Below the pieces are notes generated by a model. That model saw nothing but the letters and a program-made list of their open reading frames with translations. It made no database searches and had not been told where the DNA came from. Positions 1,926-45,602 of a stretch of DNA of 58,488 nucleotides are shown here, one piece after another. The position numbers were made by a program, and so were the translations under genes. The stretch lies in NCBI RefSeq assembly GCF_000803215.1, contig NZ_JSXC01000036.1, forward strand, positions 1 through 58,488. Direction: 5' to 3'. Position 1 is the first letter of the stretch; the number at the start of each line of letters is the position of its first letter. This DNA comes from Pectobacterium fontis (GTDB taxonomy: Bacteria; Pseudomonadota; Gammaproteobacteria; Enterobacterales; Enterobacteriaceae).

Positions 1926-3734
1926 ATGTTGAAACGTTTCCTGCTGCCGCTGTCGCTCGTCAATCAGGTTGTGCTGCTGATGCTGCTACTCGGTCTGCTA
2001 GGTATTGCAGGCATGTCAGTTTCAAGTTGGATGTCTCAAAGCATTCAAGGGAACGCGCACGCCATCAATAAAGCGGGCTCGCTACGCATGCAGAGTTATC
2101 GCCTGTTATCCATGGTGCCGCTCTCCGCCGAGAATCAAATTTATCTGCAAGAACTGGAAGAGAACGAAACCAGCAGCGACCTACAGCAGGCGGTGCGTCG
2201 GGAAGGACTCAGCGAGCAATTCACTGCGCTACGCCTTTTCTGGCTGGAGAATCTGCAACCGCATCTGCGGCAGGCGACACACCCCGCCGATGCCTCCACC
2301 GATGTCGCCCGCTTCGTGAAGCAGTTGGACGATCTGGTTTCCGCCATCGACCATAAAACCGAACAGCGGTTGAAGATGGTCACGCTCGTGCAGCGTATCT
2401 TCATCGGCATCATGTTTATCCTGCTGCTCAGCACGTTCTTTTATCTGCGTCGTCGTCTGTTAACACCGTGGCGACATCTGGTTTCGATGGCGCAGGCCAT
2501 CGGTCATGGCGATTTCTCCCAGCGCGTCACCATCAACGGCCACGACGAAATGAGCACGTTGGGACGGGTGCTAAACAGCATGTCGGACGAGCTTTCCGCC
2601 ATGTACCACAGTCTGGCACTGCGTGTGGCCGAGAAAACAGCCGATCTGCAACAGAAAAACGATCTGCTTTCTTTCCTTTATCGCGCTAGCCGACGTCTGC
2701 ATACTGGCGCGCCACTGTGCAGTCGGCTGATGCCAATCCTGAACGAGCTTTCCTCGTTAACGCCGCTTCGCAATATTCAACTACGGCTGTATGAAGATAA
2801 CAATCAGGAACAGTTTCATCAGTTTAGCGATGACAGCCTGCCACAGCCGGCGCACTGCCCGGATAACAGTTGCCAGAGCTGTGGTATGCAAATAAAACGC
2901 GAGGAACCGTCAGGTGAGCCTCACTGTTGGGATCTGCACGACAAACACGGGCAGTATGGCGTCGTACTGGCCACACTGCCGGGCAATACTACGCTAAGCC
3001 GCGATCAGAATCAGTTGCTGAATACCTTATTAGAACAGTTGACCAGTACACTGGCGCTGGAGCGGCAGTCCAACCATCAGCAGCAACTGATGCTCATGGA
3101 AGAACGCGCCACTATTGCCCGCGAACTTCACGACTCTATCGCACAGTCTCTCTCCTGCCTGAAAATTCAGGTAAGTTGTCTGCAAATGCAGAGCGGCGAT
3201 TTGCCCCCCGCATCGCAGAAACTGCTGACAGAAATGCGGGAGGAGTTGAACACCGCCTATCGCCAACTGCGTGAGTTGCTGACGACCTTCCGGCTTAAGC
3301 TGTCTGAATCGGGCTTACTCGCCGCGCTACGAGCATCGGTCGATGAATTCAGCAAGCGGCTGGGGTATCCCATCGCATTGCATTACCGTTTGCCGCCGCA
3401 GTCGGTATCCGCACATCAAGGGATACATGTCCTGCAAATTGTGCGTGAAGCATTGAGCAATATTTATAAACATGCGCAGGCCACGCAGGTCGAGATAACC
3501 CTGCAACTCCATCAAGGTTATATCGAACTCAGCGTGGCCGATAATGGTATCGGCATTCCTGATGATGCCAGTCGCGCCAACCACTATGGACTTATTATTA
3601 TGCGCGACCGTGCACGAGGTTTGCACGGCGAATGCATTGTTCGACGCCGGCCATCGGGAGGCACTGAAGTCAATGTCAGTTTCCTCTCCGAATATCGTCA
3701 CCGGCAGCCATTAACAGGAGAAACTCATGATTAA
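1926..3734 (+). CDS. narX: Nitrate/nitrite sensor kinase NarX
   Basis: This inner-membrane sensor kinase detects periplasmic nitrate and nitrite and phosphorylates NarL. It has 602 residues (E. coli 598). In order: TM1 about 13-35, the ligand-binding P-box [17 protein letters not shown] just after it, TM2 about 153-176, HAMP to about 222, a central cysteine cluster CPDNSCQSC near 310-320, the HPK7 H-box [10 protein letters not shown] with His402, and an ATPase domain with DNGIGIPDD and [11 protein letters not shown]. The frame is open from 1863, but the E. coli-like start MLKRFL at 1926 has AGAGG 10 bases upstream. Its end overlaps narL by 8 bases, so the two are translationally coupled. A weaker alternative start is the ATG at 1863. 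Confidence 0.96.
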
Positions 3735-39723: not shown

Positions 39724-39750
39724 AAACGGCTGCTCACGCAGCCGTTTTTT
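39724..39750 (+). terminator. tpx terminator
   Basis: AAACGGCTGC / GCAGCCGTTT around TCAC with a run of six Ts: a clear rho-independent terminator. Confidence 0.9.
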
Positions 39751-39825: not shown

Positions 39826-40230
39826 CTACCTAGTCAACCGCGTAATCGCTCGGTAAAGGGTCGAGCACAATGAAGCGAACCACAACGCCATAAGTGAGAA
39901 CATCGCACGATAAAACAGATCTCTCGTCCCACGCCAGCGCTCAGCCAGCGTGCGAGTGTTGCACGTTTTTTTTCCCCACAAATACGCCATTCCGTTATCA
40001 AACTTACTGAGATCATTTTCATTATCAAGTAGTTGAAATAATTTTTCATCCAACCAGAGACGCCAGCAGTAATAATGCGTAAGCAAAAAAAGCACCATCA
40101 AAATGACACAATCGATCGAGAAAAAAAGGGTAAATATCAGCCCCACCGGAGGTAGCGTCAGCGCCGCAAAATAGCGCCAGCTCGACAGATGGATTTGCAT
40201 AATGCGATTTGTCATTGTGTTATCAGACAT
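39826..40230 (-). CDS. Unknown membrane protein, last gene of the ynb operon
   Basis: A 134-residue protein with two N-terminal membrane helices (about 18-37 and 40-60), a charged cytoplasmic segment containing DNENDLSKFDNGMAYLWGKK, and a third helix near 105-125. I do not recognise the family. The ATG at 40230 has AAGGAG 5 bases upstream and overlaps the ynbD stop by 8 bases, so it is translated with the operon. I recall no counterpart in E. coli ynbABCD. Its coupling suggests a role with the lipid enzymes. Confidence 0.75.
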   Translation of the reverse strand: MSDNTMTNRIMQIHLSSWRYFAALTLPPVGLIFTLFFSIDCVILMVLFLLTHYYCWRLWLDEKLFQLLDNENDLSKFDNGMAYLWGKKTCNTRTLAERWRGTRDLFYRAMFSLMALWFASLCSTLYRAITRLTR

Positions 40231-41533
40231 GGGACTCCTTGCTGAACGTCTCCAGAACCTGAAAATGGGCGGGGGTAAAAACAACCTGAGGACGCCGGGC
40301 TTTAATCAGCGCCACAGCTTGCTGCACGGATCCGGCATATCTTTCACTCAGTAACCAGGCGGCTACCACCGTTGCACTACGAGATAAGCCTAAAGCACAG
40401 CACACAAGTACGGTGTCATGTGACTGGCACAACTGACTGAGCCGGGTAACGGCAAGCCGAATATCCTGTACTTCCGGTGCCACTAAATCCATTAACGGAT
40501 AAGCCTGCCAGCGCATGGTTTTGCGATTGCCTTTATGAAATTCAGCCGTCAGATCAAGTACAGCAACTTGATCTGGGATTTTATCCGGGAAGCGCCCCAA
40601 CGCCACACCAGCATAAATTATGTGACTTCGGGGTATCCGTCTGGAAAACCAGGCTTTAGAAAGCCACGCTCCGGCTAAATACGGGAACAAAAACCCGCGC
40701 GCAGAGAGGGATAAGTCGCCCTGGTCGTTTTTCTGGAATACCGACACGCCTAGCCCGGCATAGCCCGCCGCCACCATCAGCAAGGCGGCAGAAGGCCACA
40801 GCAAGATTACGCCGTATGGAATGCACAACCCCGCCAGTAAAAACAAACCGCTTCCGGCACTGTATTTAACCGCGAGCCGCAATGCGTGTGATGACGGACG
40901 ACGCCAACGCCAATGGCCTTCAATCGGAATCGCGTAGCTGATTATTACACCGACGACGATCCCGCTGAGAACATCGATAAAATGGTGCTGCCAGGTGGTG
41001 AGCACTGAAACGGCAATCAGTAAAAACCATGCACCTGACACCCGTCTTGCGCCCTTGCCTAGATGCTGACGAAAACGCAGCCACAGCAGCCATGTCAGGA
41101 TGACATGCAGTGAAGGAGCCTGATTGTAAGGCAAATCAAACTGCTCAAGCTGCTGAAATAGCCAGCCAAACATGCCCTGTATTTCCGGGCGAACAAAAGT
41201 GAATTTCAGAGGAAAAAGCAGGAATCCCGCACAGGCGATCAGTGATGCGGCAAGCAGTCGGCAACCATGGCGGGTCAGTTCCTGTTTTGACATGCAGATC
41301 AATAGCGACATGCCGTAAAGCAGATCGATGCTCCAGTAAGGCACGATGGTCCACGACATAAACGGAATCGCATACTCCCAGCCAAAGACCAGGCTTCCCA
41401 CATCGTTGCGTGTAGCAGTGAACTGATTCACCTGACCATAGCTTAAGAAAAACAGCGGCCCCAACAGCACCAGCCAGCACAGCCCTTGCTTCCAGAGAGT
41501 GTATTTGTTTTGTGTGAGCAAGGACTCAGCCAT
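40223..41533 (-). CDS. ynbD: PAP2 / dual-specificity phosphatase fusion YnbD
   Basis: A 436-residue inner-membrane protein. The N-terminal half has several membrane helices and a PAP2-type lipid phosphatase layout: FTFVRPEIQG, APSLHVILTW and HHFIDVLSGIVVG carry the Arg-Pro, Ser-x-His and His-x3-Asp parts. The C-terminal part (about 300-430) is a dual-specificity phosphatase domain with the CX5R loop CALGLSRSATVV; the residue before the loop Cys is Cys rather than the usual His. Such a protein could dephosphorylate a phospholipid phosphate such as a phosphatidylglycerophosphate-like product. Overlaps with both neighbours are 8 bases. Confidence 0.85.
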   Translation of the reverse strand: MAESLLTQNKYTLWKQGLCWLVLLGPLFFLSYGQVNQFTATRNDVGSLVFGWEYAIPFMSWTIVPYWSIDLLYGMSLLICMSKQELTRHGCRLLAASLIACAGFLLFPLKFTFVRPEIQGMFGWLFQQLEQFDLPYNQAPSLHVILTWLLWLRFRQHLGKGARRVSGAWFLLIAVSVLTTWQHHFIDVLSGIVVGVIISYAIPIEGHWRWRRPSSHALRLAVKYSAGSGLFLLAGLCIPYGVILLWPSAALLMVAAGYAGLGVSVFQKNDQGDLSLSARGFLFPYLAGAWLSKAWFSRRIPRSHIIYAGVALGRFPDKIPDQVAVLDLTAEFHKGNRKTMRWQAYPLMDLVAPEVQDIRLAVTRLSQLCQSHDTVLVCCALGLSRSATVVAAWLLSERYAGSVQQAVALIKARRPQVVFTPAHFQVLETFSKESHV

Positions 41534-43289
41534 GCGGCTTTCTCACGGCCAGCGAGACAGTAAAAATACCAAATTCATCAATCACCTGATGGCATTTTTC
41601 AAAGCCCGCCTGCTCCACCAGCGTGTCCATCTCTTTCTGAGTGCGCACACGCATCATCCACGGAATACCGTTTTGGTGGCTGGTTAACGTATACGCGATG
41701 GTCTTTAGCTGCGGATGCCACGGTTGTCCGGTATAGACCAGTACACCGCCTGGCGGCATCGCCGCAGCCAGCCCGGCAAGCGACGTTTTGATTAACTCGT
41801 TATCCGGGAAGAGTTCATACAGCCCGGAAACAATGCCCAGCGTCGGGGCCGGTTCAAGTGTAGAAAGAGAATCATAGTCAAAGGCATTACCCTTTTTGAA
41901 CCGCGCAACGTGGCCTAATCCGCGCTCGTCAATCATGGCCTGGCCTTTTTCCACATTTAATTCGCTGTAATCACGCAGCAATATGCTTTCAATACCCGGA
42001 TGTTTTTCCAGCGCGTCGAGAACATAGCGTCCGTGCCCGGCCGCAATATCTACCACGCGTACCGACATACCACGCGCTTTCAACGTTGTGACCGCCTGTT
42101 CAATGACATGCTGGATATTAATTTTTCGTATCCGAATGCCCTTCCAGCCGATGCTGTTGAGGTAGTGCTTATCAAGCATCCGTCCCAGCACTCCCTTGCC
42201 TTCGGGGTAATTACGGTACACATAATCCAGTGTGCTACCGGAATCAAAACCCGTCTCATAGCCCAGACGCATCCCTTTCGATAATCTACCCACCGTTTTC
42301 ATACCATAGCTTAACGAGGAATAGGCCATCCCCTCCAGCGACCACGATGTTGGCGGAACCTGCAATTCACGATATGCGTCGGCACTAGGGCTCCATTGGT
42401 CTTCATGGCTATAATCGAACGTATAAGGTTGATCCGCATAGAGCTTGTCGATAAAGCACTTCATTTTATCGAAGGCAATGGCACGGTTTTTTTCACCCAA
42501 CGTATCATGATAAAAGCCAGGTAAAATATGCTGCTCTTTTATGGCGCTGCGCAAACCAACGTAAAAATGTTTTTGTGGTTTCGCGTGCACAACAAAATCG
42601 TTACCGGAAATAAGCAACTGCGTGGGCAGTGTAATTGCAGAAGAGTCGGAAACAATGCGCTCGGCTGTTTTGTAGAGATCGAGCAAAATATTGACGGCAA
42701 TCTGGCGCGTAATAAGTTTATCCTGCTCGAAACTTGCGATACGTTCAGGATCGTGGCTGAGGAATTTTCCTTTCACGTAGGAATTCACATAAAACAGCCC
42801 ACGAATGCGTTGCATTAATCCCAGCCCGATGCGGGCAAACGGCACATAAAGTTTGACCTTAAAGGCCGGGGAAGCGAGTACCATCCCCCGAATTTTCGGC
42901 GCGTAGTCATGAACCCATGTGGATACCAGCACGGCACCCACGCTCTGCGCGATCACCACGATATCCTCAAGGCTGACTTGCGCATCCTGAGCCACGAAAC
43001 GCACAAACTCATCAACGTCCAGAACCGAGCGAGCCAGACTCGGGCTGTAACCGCGCGCGCCCGGAGACTGGCCGTGCCCGCGTGCATCCCAAGCATAAAA
43101 ATGCGTATCCGGCATAACCAACTCATCAACAATGTGTTGCAGACGCCCGGAATGTTCATGCCCGCGATGAAACAGCACGATCACTTTCTTACTGAAACCT
43201 TCCGTTGCAGGCCAGTAGCGAAAATAGAGCGACTCTCCATCGCTGGTTGAGAACGTGCTTTCCTGAAATACACGCGTTTCCTGACTCAT
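41526..43289 (-). CDS. ynbC: Alpha/beta hydrolase-methyltransferase fusion YnbC
   Basis: A 587-residue two-domain protein (E. coli YnbC about 585). Residues 1 to about 285 are a monoacylglycerol-lipase/lysophospholipase-like hydrolase: GHGQSPGARGY, nucleophile Ser in VIAQSVGAVL, Asp in GNDFVVH and His in GFYHDTLGE. Residues about 330-587 are a class I SAM-dependent methyltransferase with motif I VVDIAAGHGRYVLDAL. The pair of activities suggests removal of an acyl group and methylation of a lipid or head group, but the substrate is not known. Start ATG overlaps the acyltransferase stop by 4 bases. Confidence 0.88.
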   Translation of the reverse strand: MSQETRVFQESTFSTSDGESLYFRYWPATEGFSKKVIVLFHRGHEHSGRLQHIVDELVMPDTHFYAWDARGHGQSPGARGYSPSLARSVLDVDEFVRFVAQDAQVSLEDIVVIAQSVGAVLVSTWVHDYAPKIRGMVLASPAFKVKLYVPFARIGLGLMQRIRGLFYVNSYVKGKFLSHDPERIASFEQDKLITRQIAVNILLDLYKTAERIVSDSSAITLPTQLLISGNDFVVHAKPQKHFYVGLRSAIKEQHILPGFYHDTLGEKNRAIAFDKMKCFIDKLYADQPYTFDYSHEDQWSPSADAYRELQVPPTSWSLEGMAYSSLSYGMKTVGRLSKGMRLGYETGFDSGSTLDYVYRNYPEGKGVLGRMLDKHYLNSIGWKGIRIRKINIQHVIEQAVTTLKARGMSVRVVDIAAGHGRYVLDALEKHPGIESILLRDYSELNVEKGQAMIDERGLGHVARFKKGNAFDYDSLSTLEPAPTLGIVSGLYELFPDNELIKTSLAGLAAAMPPGGVLVYTGQPWHPQLKTIAYTLTSHQNGIPWMMRVRTQKEMDTLVEQAGFEKCHQVIDEFGIFTVSLAVRKPHG

Positions 43290-43918
43290 GTTATTTTCCT
43301 TGTCGCTTGCTGTTGTAATGTAACAAATCGATTAAATAACGATTGTTTAAACGCGACCTTATCCGCATCGTAAAACAGAGGTTCGTCTATAAAGATATCG
43401 ATGAAGAACGGAACAGGGATTTTTTGGCCTTTACCCATTGAGCGGTCCAGACCATGCATGTAAACAGGAATAATGGGCACATCTGGACACTGCTGGCTTA
43501 AATGCCAAATGCCGGATTTGATCTCCGAAAATTTACCTGGCTCGCCACGCGTTCCTTCCGGGAAGATAATCACAATTTTCTTTTCCGCCAGCGCATCGAC
43601 GCAGGCTTGTAACGGATTCGACTGATGGGCTCCGCGATAAACAGGAATAATACCGATGACCTTCAGGGCGAACCATCCGATAGCTTTATTCCGCAGGAAA
43701 TAATCCGCCGCCGCCACTGGCTGCACCTTAACCAGCGCTGAAAGCGGAAACAGCGTGAACAGCGTCAACACATCCAGATGGCTATTGTGATTCGCGACGA
43801 TAATTGCCGGCCCTTCTGTGGGCAGCTTTTGACGCCCGGAAACGCGAACGCCCAGCCAAATCCAGACCACGGGATAAGCGATACATAGCGTAAAGATCCA
43901 GCGCAGCATACGGTTCAT
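43286..43918 (-). CDS. PlsC-type 1-acylglycerol-3-phosphate acyltransferase
   Basis: A 210-residue membrane-associated acyltransferase with one N-terminal helix, the catalytic HX4D motif in NHNSHLDVL, and the glycerophosphate-binding motif FPEGTRGEPGKF. Members transfer an acyl group from acyl-ACP or acyl-CoA to lysophosphatidic acid. It is inserted between ynbB and ynbC, where I recall no such gene in E. coli, and is coupled to ynbC by an ATGA overlap; 16 bases separate it from ynbB. It would provide phosphatidic acid, the substrate of the CdsA-like YnbB. It is not plsC itself, which is normally linked to parC. Confidence 0.88.
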   Translation of the reverse strand: MNRMLRWIFTLCIAYPVVWIWLGVRVSGRQKLPTEGPAIIVANHNSHLDVLTLFTLFPLSALVKVQPVAAADYFLRNKAIGWFALKVIGIIPVYRGAHQSNPLQACVDALAEKKIVIIFPEGTRGEPGKFSEIKSGIWHLSQQCPDVPIIPVYMHGLDRSMGKGQKIPVPFFIDIFIDEPLFYDADKVAFKQSLFNRFVTLQQQATRKIT

Positions 43919-43934
43919 CGGCGTGCCTTATCAT

Positions 43935-44864
43935 TTACAAGTAGAAATAGTAATAGAAGTGGAAAAACAACGGCGCGGTGTAAATGAGTGAATCCAGCCG
44001 GTCAAGAATACCGCCATGCCCCGGCAATAATCTCCCAGAGTCTTTCACGCCAAAATCGCGTTTAATCGCCGACATCACCACATCGCCACAGAATCCACTC
44101 AGCCCAATAATCACCCCCGCCCCCAGCGAATAGATCCAGTTCATCGGGGTCAGTAGCGGGCCGAAAAGCGCTGCCAGCAGCGTGGTGGTCAATGCACCAC
44201 CTAATAATCCGGCCAGCGTTTTATTCGGGCTGACTTTCGGCGTAACCTTGATTTTCCCCAGCGATTTCCCCCACAGATATTGCGAAATATCGTTAAGCTC
44301 GGTAGCCGCCACCAGGAAAATAACCAGCAATGCGCCTGCTTTGGTATCAACACCTGGCAACGTCATCAGAAACGCAACATGGCTTAAGGCGAAAACCGTC
44401 GTCATCATGCCCCAGTGCATAACCGATGCAGAGTGTAAGAATCCTTTAGTATCGCCAACAAGAACCATCCGGGCAGGCAGGAATAAAAAGACATAAATAG
44501 GAATGAAGATAATAAACATCCCGTACCACGACATCCCCACCCAGAGATATTGCAGCGGGATCGCCGCATACATCCACAGCAACGGAATGCTATCGGAACG
44601 GCGGGTTGGTGCCAGCGTCAGATACTCCTTCAATGACAGAAAACTGATAAACCCGAAGAACGTCAGCGCCAGTCCTTTTGGCAACAGCATCGCCAGCGAA
44701 AACAGGCCAATAATCACCCACCAACTGTTAATCCGCTGCTGAAGCTCCAGCCAGTCACGCTCTGGGCGGCATTTTTTTAAAACAAAGATAATTACGGTTG
44801 CCAGCACTAAAATGCTGAAGATCCCGCCAAGGCAATAATACAAAGTGCGCAGAGAATCAGGCAT
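43935..44864 (-). CDS. ynbB: CdsA-like phosphatidate cytidylyltransferase YnbB
   Basis: A 309-residue polytopic inner-membrane protein of the CDP-diacylglycerol synthase family, which makes CDP-diacylglycerol from CTP and phosphatidic acid. The C-terminal family signature is present: SAIKRDFGVKDSGRLLPGHG followed by GGILDRLDS. The frame is open 37 codons further upstream, antisense-like; the ATG at 44864 has GGAGG 6 bases before it and overlaps the ynbA stop by 8 bases. It is a paralogue of housekeeping CdsA and probably dedicated to the operon's own product. Confidence 0.9.
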   Translation of the reverse strand: MPDSLRTLYYCLGGIFSILVLATVIIFVLKKCRPERDWLELQQRINSWWVIIGLFSLAMLLPKGLALTFFGFISFLSLKEYLTLAPTRRSDSIPLLWMYAAIPLQYLWVGMSWYGMFIIFIPIYVFLFLPARMVLVGDTKGFLHSASVMHWGMMTTVFALSHVAFLMTLPGVDTKAGALLVIFLVAATELNDISQYLWGKSLGKIKVTPKVSPNKTLAGLLGGALTTTLLAALFGPLLTPMNWIYSLGAGVIIGLSGFCGDVVMSAIKRDFGVKDSGRLLPGHGGILDRLDSLIYTAPLFFHFYYYFYL

Positions 44865-45459
44865 TTTTGACCTCCAACGCGCTGCGGCAACGGTTGATAG
44901 CGGTCCATACCAGTAACACTGCCGAGGCACCAAACACAATATTGACAGCACCAATATATTGCGGCCAAAGTGCAATAAATAAGCCTAAAGCCCCCAGCAC
45001 AAAAGCCCGATCGCTCTTACCCATCGGGCCAAGGTAATTTCGGCTGCCCGTCAGTACCTGAGTAATGACACCGCAAAATTCCGTCAGCCACGCCAGCAAC
45101 ACCACCAGGACAACCAGCCACGGCGAAACCCCTGTCAAAAAAGCAAACGCGAGGTAAAGCGCAGCATCAGCGATGATATCGCCGACTTCATTAAGAATGG
45201 CACCAAGTCTGGATTGCTGGTTAAATTCCCGGGCTAACATGCCGTCTATGGCATTCAGCGCCATACGGAAAAATAAAAAGATTGGTAGAGAGAGAAAGAA
45301 AAACGGCTCAGGAAAACACATCAGTACTCCGCCGAGCAGTACCGATGCCAGCATTGCCAGCAGCGTAATCTGGTTTGCCGTCGCCCCCATGGCATGAAGT
45401 CTGACAACAGTGGGTCGAAGCAAATTCTGAAACTTAGGTTTGATATCATACAAAGTCAC
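44857..45459 (-). CDS. ynbA: CDP-alcohol phosphatidyltransferase YnbA
   Basis: A 200-residue polytopic membrane enzyme (E. coli 201) of the CDP-alcohol phosphatidyltransferase family, which joins a CDP-diacylglycerol phosphatidyl group to an alcohol. The family motif is present but altered: NAIDGMLAREF, then GAILNEVGDIIAD, with Asn where the first and third conserved Asp are expected. The start is GTG at 45459 with AGGAG 8 bases upstream. It is the first gene of a six-gene operon on this strand. The acceptor alcohol is unknown. Confidence 0.9.
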   Translation of the reverse strand: MTLYDIKPKFQNLLRPTVVRLHAMGATANQITLLAMLASVLLGGVLMCFPEPFFFLSLPIFLFFRMALNAIDGMLAREFNQQSRLGAILNEVGDIIADAALYLAFAFLTGVSPWLVVLVVLLAWLTEFCGVITQVLTGSRNYLGPMGKSDRAFVLGALGLFIALWPQYIGAVNIVFGASAVLLVWTAINRCRSALEVKNA

Positions 45460-45578: not shown

Positions 45579-45602
45579 ACGGCTGTGCGAGCAGCCGTTT
45601 TG
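45579..45602. terminator. Hairpin next to tyrR 3' end
   Basis: ACGGCTG / CAGCCGT with a 6-base loop and TTTT on the plus strand. It lies between the tyrR stop and the ynbA promoter region and probably insulates them; a second hairpin (GTCCTGA / TCAGGAC) is at 45542-45563. Confidence 0.5.

Follow-up and report, generated by a model that had tools for sequence, protein, structure and literature searches.

A contig of 58,488 nucleotides from Pectobacterium fontis (NZ_JSXC01000036.1, assembly GCF_000803215.1; the whole contig is hereafter called the window) hosts an operon of six genes, denoted in order ynbA, ynbB, P (a plsC-like acyltransferase gene), ynbC, ynbD and orf6. These genes make up a widespread six-gene lipid system, of which the ynbABCD operon of Escherichia coli is a reduced form. 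Judged from the sequences, the encoded proteins may constitute an insulated side pathway of membrane-lipid synthesis, served by its own cytidine diphosphate (CDP)-activated lipid. Our confidence in this reading is evenly balanced.

The six open reading frames are all located on the minus strand, and span positions 39826-45459 (Table 1). They are coupled as described in the first-pass annotation of the window: proceeding from ynbA to orf6, the junctions are an overlap of 8 bases, a gap of 16, and overlaps of 4, 8 and 8 bases. The start of orf6 has been corrected to position 40230. The families and domains initially assigned to the proteins are borne out by Pfam matches above cut-off, which are CDP-OH_P_transf in YnbA, CTP_transf_1 in YnbB, Acyltransferase in P, Hydrolase_4 and Methyltransf_20 in YnbC, DSPc and PAP2_3 in YnbD. 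Two assignments have been refined, as the YnbC hydrolase is of the monoacylglycerol lipase (MGL) type, and the PAP2 part of YnbD is a PAP2_3 domain.

Table 1. Genes of the P. fontis ynb operon and flanking stems (positions in the window).
Feature	Position	Strand	Description
ynbA	44857-45459	-	GTG start, 200 aa; relative of class I CDP-alcohol phosphotransferases, 'NN' type
ynbB	43935-44864	-	309 aa; CdsA-like cytidine triphosphate (CTP):lipid-phosphate cytidylyltransferase
P (plsC-like acyltransferase)	43286-43918	-	210 aa; HX4D and PEG residues
ynbC	41526-43289	-	587 aa; MGL-type hydrolase and class I S-adenosylmethionine (SAM) methyltransferase, Methyltransf_20
ynbD	40223-41533	-	436 aa; membrane PAP2_3 domain, then dual-specificity phosphatase (DSP) domain
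orf6 (sixth gene)	39826-40230	-	134 aa from ATG; small, all-helical, probably membrane-bound; no family match
terminator-like stem beside tpx	39724-39745	.	arm of a 22-nt inverted repeat, the other arm being 45579-45600
terminator-like stem beside tyrR	45579-45600	.	brackets the operon together with 39724-39745

The YnbC family PF12147 is patchily distributed. Members were found in 59 of the 295 genomes searched in the family of P. fontis, in 16/369 genomes of the class (13 over the cut-off) and in 27/398 genomes of the phylum, the three samples overlapping in part. Gene layouts have been compared in two sets of loci. The named set includes the best 80 of 281 relatives obtained from a protein scan of named genomes; the sampled set includes 90 loci cut from the sampled genomes, and some species are common to both. 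Genes were called by score thresholds, orf6 was required to lie directly behind ynbD, and loci cut by contig ends were taken as seen. This strict rule missed orf6 in L098, L102, L113, L198, L201, L228 and L229, where it was matched otherwise. The six-gene layout is the most frequent in both sets (47 named, 55 sampled loci). The combination ynbA-ynbC-ynbD-orf6 (A-C-D-6) is found in 21 named and 14 sampled loci, and the remaining 12 and 21 loci feature other gene sets. The six genes come in several orders, which are A-B-P-C-D-6 in Enterobacterales, Andreprevotia, Jeongeupia and Iodobacter, A-C-D-6-P-B in Pseudomonas, and A-C-D-6-B-P in Shewanella gelidii and some other gammaproteobacteria. Since gene order varies while content holds, plain hitch-hiking is unlikely; the recurrence of the six genes in distant bacteria, combined with the conservation of active-site residues described below, marks this as more than a chance association.

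Co-occurrence of the six genes, anticipated in the first-pass annotation, holds best for two pairs. Variation of the acyltransferase and the sixth gene independently of ynbABCD, which would have refuted that annotation, is largely not seen. P and ynbB are either both present or both missing in 78 of 80 named and 83 of 90 sampled loci, counts that include loci cut by contig ends and four distant loci carrying ynbC only. Similarly, orf6 lies directly behind ynbD in 70/76 named and 71/78 sampled ynbD-bearing loci by the strict rule, and in more by a loose one. The linkage has exceptions, as seven of the 90 sampled loci carry ynbB and lack P, L066 features ynbA, ynbB, ynbC and ynbD only, E. coli departs from the rule, and some operons are reduced to remnants. 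Among the latter, L287 retains ynbA, ynbB, P and a 47-residue ynbC stub, L282 ynbA and a short ynbB, L285 ynbA only.

The set is also found in plasmid records. Plasmids of Citrobacter and Shinella encode distant copies of orf6, recognized by profile (65 and 32 bits, respectively), and no plasmid match to the orf6 of the window was obtained by tblastn at 1e-5. In a Burkholderia ambifaria plasmid the orf6 position is taken by a hypothetical protein which does not match the profile. The E. coli plasmids L007 and L009 feature ynbA-ynbB-plsC-ynbC followed by a short ynbD stub only, and colicin M genes are located about 5 kb from the L007 operon.

YnbA matches the Pfam family CDP-OH_P_transf with 42.4 bits (cut-off 22). 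The signature of CDP-alcohol phosphotransferases, D1xxD2G1xxAR...G2xxxD3xxxD4, is described as absolutely conserved in the accessible portion of PMC4634129, where metal binding is ascribed to Asp1-3 and the probable role of base to Asp4. YnbA departs from this eight-residue signature, as N69 replaces D1 and N90 replaces D3 in all the 80 aligned copies (matches of at least 200 bits; the partial copies in L057 and L106 were excluded by their score, and no copy came from L108 and L133). Asparagines are found at the same positions in 30/30 members of a more divergent YnbA set. Aspartates occupy both positions in five aligned PDB chains and in 30/30 other CDP-alcohol phosphotransferase loci, which are the strongest ones and mostly PgsA-like. 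The call at position 1 rests on the alignment to the five PDB chains, a gap falling there in the profile alignment. The other six residues of the signature, among which D72 and D94, are invariant in 80/80 copies, and D98 and K148 are also kept. R151 and R190, equally conserved in 80/80, correspond in the alignment to R155 and R195 of the phosphatidylinositol phosphate (PIP) synthase of mycobacteria (6h53 chain numbering), residues held to bind the acceptor phosphate (PMC4634129, same portion). The initial view of YnbA as an ordinary phosphatidyl transferase is not supported, two of eight signature residues being replaced in every aligned copy. We read it as a putatively active enzyme featuring a different metal site and using a phosphorylated acceptor; a role restricted to binding is the main rival. 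Inositol-1-phosphate made de novo was considered as acceptor and rejected. INO1 (PF07994) was detected in none of the 67 ynb-positive genomes searched, the control being positive in 5 of 14, and the acceptor is probably other than INO1-made inositol-1-phosphate.

YnbB matches CTP_transf_1 with 223 bits. Nine residues checked against the CdsA signature, which we take to be S..KRD....D...H....DR.D, are conserved in 58/58 aligned sequences, and the HX4D and PEG motifs of P in 55/55. The first-pass annotation had read the two proteins as a plain supply line from lysophosphatidic acid to phosphatidic acid (PA) and CDP-diacylglycerol (CDP-DAG). This does not fit well with the genome, which encodes its own CdsA and further acyltransferases. 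In the available excerpts of PMC6362211, E. coli YnbB is reported to be unable to replace CdsA (data not shown there), and its overproduction raises the level of the glycolipid MPIase about as CdsA does, a combination fitting an enzyme outside the bulk supply.

The notion of a plain supply is further weakened by the finding that genomes whose locus has no YnbB-type gene mostly keep one in another place. The YnbB profile detected such a gene in 15 of 16 genomes hosting sampled loci that lack ynbB and P and carry ynbA and ynbC, a selection that leaves aside L163 (a 3,844-base contig), L201 and the four distant loci with ynbC alone. The extra genes score 385-492 bits, versus 105-118 bits for the CdsA-type match. 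YnbB-type genes were found in 8 of 80 ynb-negative control genomes of the family, hand-picked and including eight carriers of the A' gene described below, which raise the count, and 16 genomes smaller than 3 Mb, which lower it. The difference is significant by genome (Fisher p 5e-11) and by genus (7/8 vs 6/62, p 1e-5), and holds within the family when genomes below 3 Mb, and the two of the 16 that lie outside the family of the controls (G890 and G695), are removed (13/14 vs 8/64, p 1e-8), keeping in mind that several of the 16 genomes are close kin, by which the p values overstate the difference. These data weaken the idea that the A-C-D-6 loci rely on the housekeeping CdsA.

The extra ynbB lies beside a PlsC-like gene in 12 of 15 places, and in seven of the 12 a third gene, A', is also there. 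A' encodes a CDP-alcohol phosphotransferase of the NN type, and forms with the PlsC-like and YnbB-like genes a second operon, A'-P'-B', identified in L289-L299, L301-L303 and L315, which occurs with or without ynb. A' proteins have asparagine at both D1 and D3 and keep D2 and D4 (14 motifs in 15 loci, plus one further). No paper joining the three protein names was found in the open-licence literature.

YnbD had been described as carrying two phosphatase domains, which is not established, the PAP2 half being of the PAP2_3 type. The DSP domain has the C379x5R385 site and the acid D349 in 77/77 sequences; its profile matches many dual-specificity phosphatases, the best being ShufPTP (6.2e-15), and among them PTPMT1 (3rgo, 2.8e-13). 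The other half of the protein matches Pfam PAP2_3 with 34.2 bits (cut-off 27), and H143 in the motif PSLH143, H183 and D187 in H183xxxD187 are conserved in 77/77. When compared to the C1, C2 and C3 motifs, which we take to define classic PAP2 phosphatases, this half lacks the C1 lysine and the C3 arginine as conserved residues: among 77 sequences, 39 have K and 27 have R at position 110, and 76 have V at position 177. A transferase is at least as likely as a phosphatase in the light of these replacements. Membrane PAP2-type chains were missing among the best 60 of 109 PDB matches of YnbD. A crude hydropathy count gives six membrane segments ahead of the DSP domain, a seventh within the domain being taken as false; if the N terminus of YnbD is cytosolic, the DSP domain may be cytosolic as well. 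E. coli YnbD did not complement strains defective in phosphatidylglycerophosphate (PGP) phosphatase, of the PgpB type, or in undecaprenyl pyrophosphate (C55-PP) phosphatase, according to the accessible part of PMC7413402. In the portion available of PMC3855560, ynbD is listed among fitness candidates of uropathogenic E. coli.

The N-terminal domain of YnbC matches MGL (6qe2, 1.7e-25), and the catalytic triad is conserved, S116 being found in 83/84 sequences (one gap) and D231 and H261 in 84/84. The SAM motif is conserved too. The methyltransferase half gave weak PDB matches only (9sls, 9sm0), from which a substrate class does not emerge. The putative tailoring role of YnbC, as initially proposed, is plausible. 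A distant YnbC-like hydrolase-methyltransferase fusion was found at L194, in an operon whose other genes encode FabF-, FabG- and MaoC-like proteins, a carrier protein and a predicted metal hydrolase; L193, L195 and L197 resemble L194 by their first residues. This fab-type context hints that YnbC-like fusions act on acyl substrates. The ynbC gene is also found in a list of mutated genes in the part available of a persistence study (PMC13313352).

The orf6 product did not match any Pfam or NCBIfam family at E 0.1, nor any PDB sequence. Across 61 sequences D61 and R98 are invariant, and R57 and G101 almost invariant. The structural model predicted from the 61-row alignment is confident (predicted local distance difference test, pLDDT, 93.6), and a fold assignment was attempted and dropped, the 95 aligned chains being mostly unrelated helical ones. 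An integral-membrane diacylglycerol kinase of the DgkA type was among the candidates considered, by fold and by sequence. A separate search detected orf6 in 52 of the 295 family genomes, two of them (G117 and G135) with weak partial matches. The remaining 50 all belong to the 59 PF12147 genomes, nine of which lack orf6.

From gene content, linkage, catalytic residues and the YnbB-type gene kept elsewhere we infer the reactions of the pathway, with their order and topology, as follows. P and YnbB would make a dedicated CDP-activated lipid. YnbA, with its altered metal site, would load the lipid-phosphate onto a phosphorylated acceptor, whose own phosphate would then be stripped off by the probably cytosolic DSP domain of YnbD, in the way PTPMT1 acts on PGP. 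The PAP2_3 domain may act on the head group at the other face of the membrane, an AUR1-type transferase being favored over a plain phosphatase. The MGL domain of YnbC may trim or exchange an acyl chain and its C-terminal domain may methylate the product; orf6 would be a membrane partner of YnbD.

Several observations weigh against this scheme. The one E. coli chromosome examined retains ynbABCD, followed by azoR, without P and orf6, in agreement with the first-pass annotation on the two missing genes. Loci L283, L284 and L286 host ynbA, ynbB and P without ynbC, ynbD and orf6, hence the whole set is not indispensable. G043, a genome rated 100% complete featuring an A-C-D-6 locus, lacks any YnbB-type gene. 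The extra ynbB stands alone without P in L310 and L312, and no P was called in L314. The persistence of YnbB-type genes in trans is confounded by kinship. Finally, changes of signature aspartates to serine or asparagine cut or abolished the activity of MjPSS, as stated in the excerpts available of PMC8633023, and YnbA might thus not be a transferase at all.

YnbA could rather be a CDP-lipid binder, or hold a complex together, and the operon could be a module of lipid remodelling or recycling made of lipase, acyltransferase and phosphatases. Both residues substituted in YnbA are needed for activity elsewhere (PMC8633023, same excerpts), and the MGL-like YnbC and the acyltransferase P are a possible deacylation-reacylation pair. 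However, all 80 YnbA copies retain the six remaining signature residues and both acceptor arginines, and the A' family shares the two asparagines while keeping D2 and D4; an enzyme in decay does not show such a pattern. We regard the remodelling module as unlikely.

The operon might otherwise be a redundant copy of ordinary phospholipid synthesis, in which P, YnbB and YnbA make more PA, CDP-DAG and a common lipid such as phosphatidylglycerol (PG), and YnbD serves as an additional PGP phosphatase. Family matches, the intact CdsA and PlsC signatures and the relationship of the DSP domain to PTPMT1 fit this view. Yet YnbA lacks two signature aspartates, and, as far as the excerpts of PMC6362211 and PMC7413402 tell, YnbB does not replace CdsA and YnbD does not complement PGP-phosphatase and C55-PP-phosphatase strains. 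A spare set, moreover, would need no other YnbB elsewhere. Redundancy is accordingly more doubtful still than remodelling.

The genomic setting of the operon bears on its origin. The six genes are placed between the convergent tpx and tyrR, which in the record of the E. coli type strain are direct neighbours with 43 bases between them. Because tpx and tyrR are adjacent in E. coli and similar stems are found at each side of the operon, the latter occupies a gap that is short and shared there. PF12147 was absent from both of the two sampled relatives of the same genus. This setting and these relatives are compatible with the gain of the operon by transfer. A promoter scan was uninformative, as five sites were found versus a mean of 6.5 in shuffled sequence.

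The genes flanking ynb operons vary, and include type VI secretion, sulfate permease, trehalase, sigma-54 activator and alpha-2-macroglobulin genes, among others. They were considered as a clue to the head group; the 20 proteins scanned differ between lineages, and no acceptor is indicated. In L056 the operon is surrounded by genes of type VI secretion: by Pfam, IcmF and TssJ precede it, and TssF and TssG follow it. In L058, L060, L061, L066 and L110 it lies in or beside the same type VI clusters, and L058 also encodes an ImpA_N protein. One genome of the same order has a gene for a 717-residue WG-repeat protein (L225:7708-9861) inserted between ynbC and ynbD. In L203 a StlD/DarB-type ketosynthase of the dialkylresorcinol family (2373-3527) is encoded close upstream of a divergent ynb operon.

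The operon might be cargo of mobile or contact-weapon loci, altering the membrane and thereby protecting the cell against lipid-attacking effectors. This would account for its position amid type VI genes in L056, shown by Pfam, and in L060, L061 and L110, by cluster membership, as well as for the plasmid copies and the insertion between tpx and tyrR. Type VI clusters (c27-c29) are nevertheless found in 6 of 83 loci only, whose flanks were partly scanned, and by look correspond to few independent events. The hypothesis, which leaves the chemistry unexplained, is highly improbable. Least probable of all is an accessory supply for MPIase, in which YnbB would make N-acetylglucosamine (GlcNAc)-PP-DAG and the other proteins modify it: overproduced YnbB raises MPIase, and YnbB loss worsens the protein-integration defect when Tam41p is expressed, but YnbB loss alone does not significantly change MPIase (PMC6362211, in the excerpts available), ynb is patchy (PF12147 in 59/295 family genomes), and no glycosyltransferase was found among the 20 flanking proteins scanned with Pfam.

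Returning to the insulated side pathway, a wider view is tentatively put forward, which we hold with less confidence than the pathway itself. Proteobacteria may possess an insulated second route of phospholipid synthesis centred on NN-type enzymes, YnbA and A', each having its own acyltransferase/cytidylyltransferase pair, and relying on a CDP-lipid neither made nor used by the bulk enzymes. To this route the ynb branch would add YnbC as a lipase-methyltransferase, YnbD as a two-headed phosphatase/transferase and the orf6 product as a small membrane partner, ending in an undescribed lipid.

The open-licence literature yielded no paper for the term ynbABCD, one genome announcement only for ynbA, ynbB and ynbC together, and no agreed function for the four E. 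coli genes. Since the E. coli chromosome holds a reduced set, single knock-outs may be uninformative. The comparison supplies a list of genes for joint expression, and points to a phosphorylated acceptor. YnbA is also a natural exception to a signature called absolutely conserved, and as such bears on the metal mechanism of CDP-alcohol phosphotransferases.

Several known systems resemble the operon or parts of it. The best NCBIfam and PDB sequence relatives of YnbA are PIP synthase and archaetidylinositol-phosphate synthase, which both use a phosphorylated acceptor, and the two arginines contacting the acceptor phosphate in PIP synthase are kept in YnbA. Unlike these enzymes, YnbA has asparagine in place of Asp1 and Asp3, and scores far under the NCBIfam equivalog cut-offs (73.8 bits where 180 are required, and 51.2 where 170 are). 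YnbB and P retain the signature residues of the CdsA and PlsC of bulk synthesis, and are distinct from the CdsA of the genome and its other acyltransferase-family proteins. AUR1-type transferases, to which we presume YnbD to be akin, share with it the PAP2_3 match, H143 and H183xxxD187. The PGP phosphatase PTPMT1 has in common with YnbD the C-x5-R site and the acid aspartate, and is a profile match though not the best one; in YnbD, in contrast, the DSP domain is fused behind PAP2_3, and the E. coli protein did not act as PGP phosphatase in vivo, according to the accessible part of PMC7413402. A further close system is the E. coli ynbABCD operon. When a query running from ynbA into the first part of ynbC was used, 4,545 of 5,426 E. 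coli genomes matched, never over more than 80% of the query length. The E. coli chromosomal operon features homologous ynbA, ynbB, ynbC and ynbD genes in the same order and differs in the lack of P and orf6, the six-gene form being the commoner one in the loci examined.

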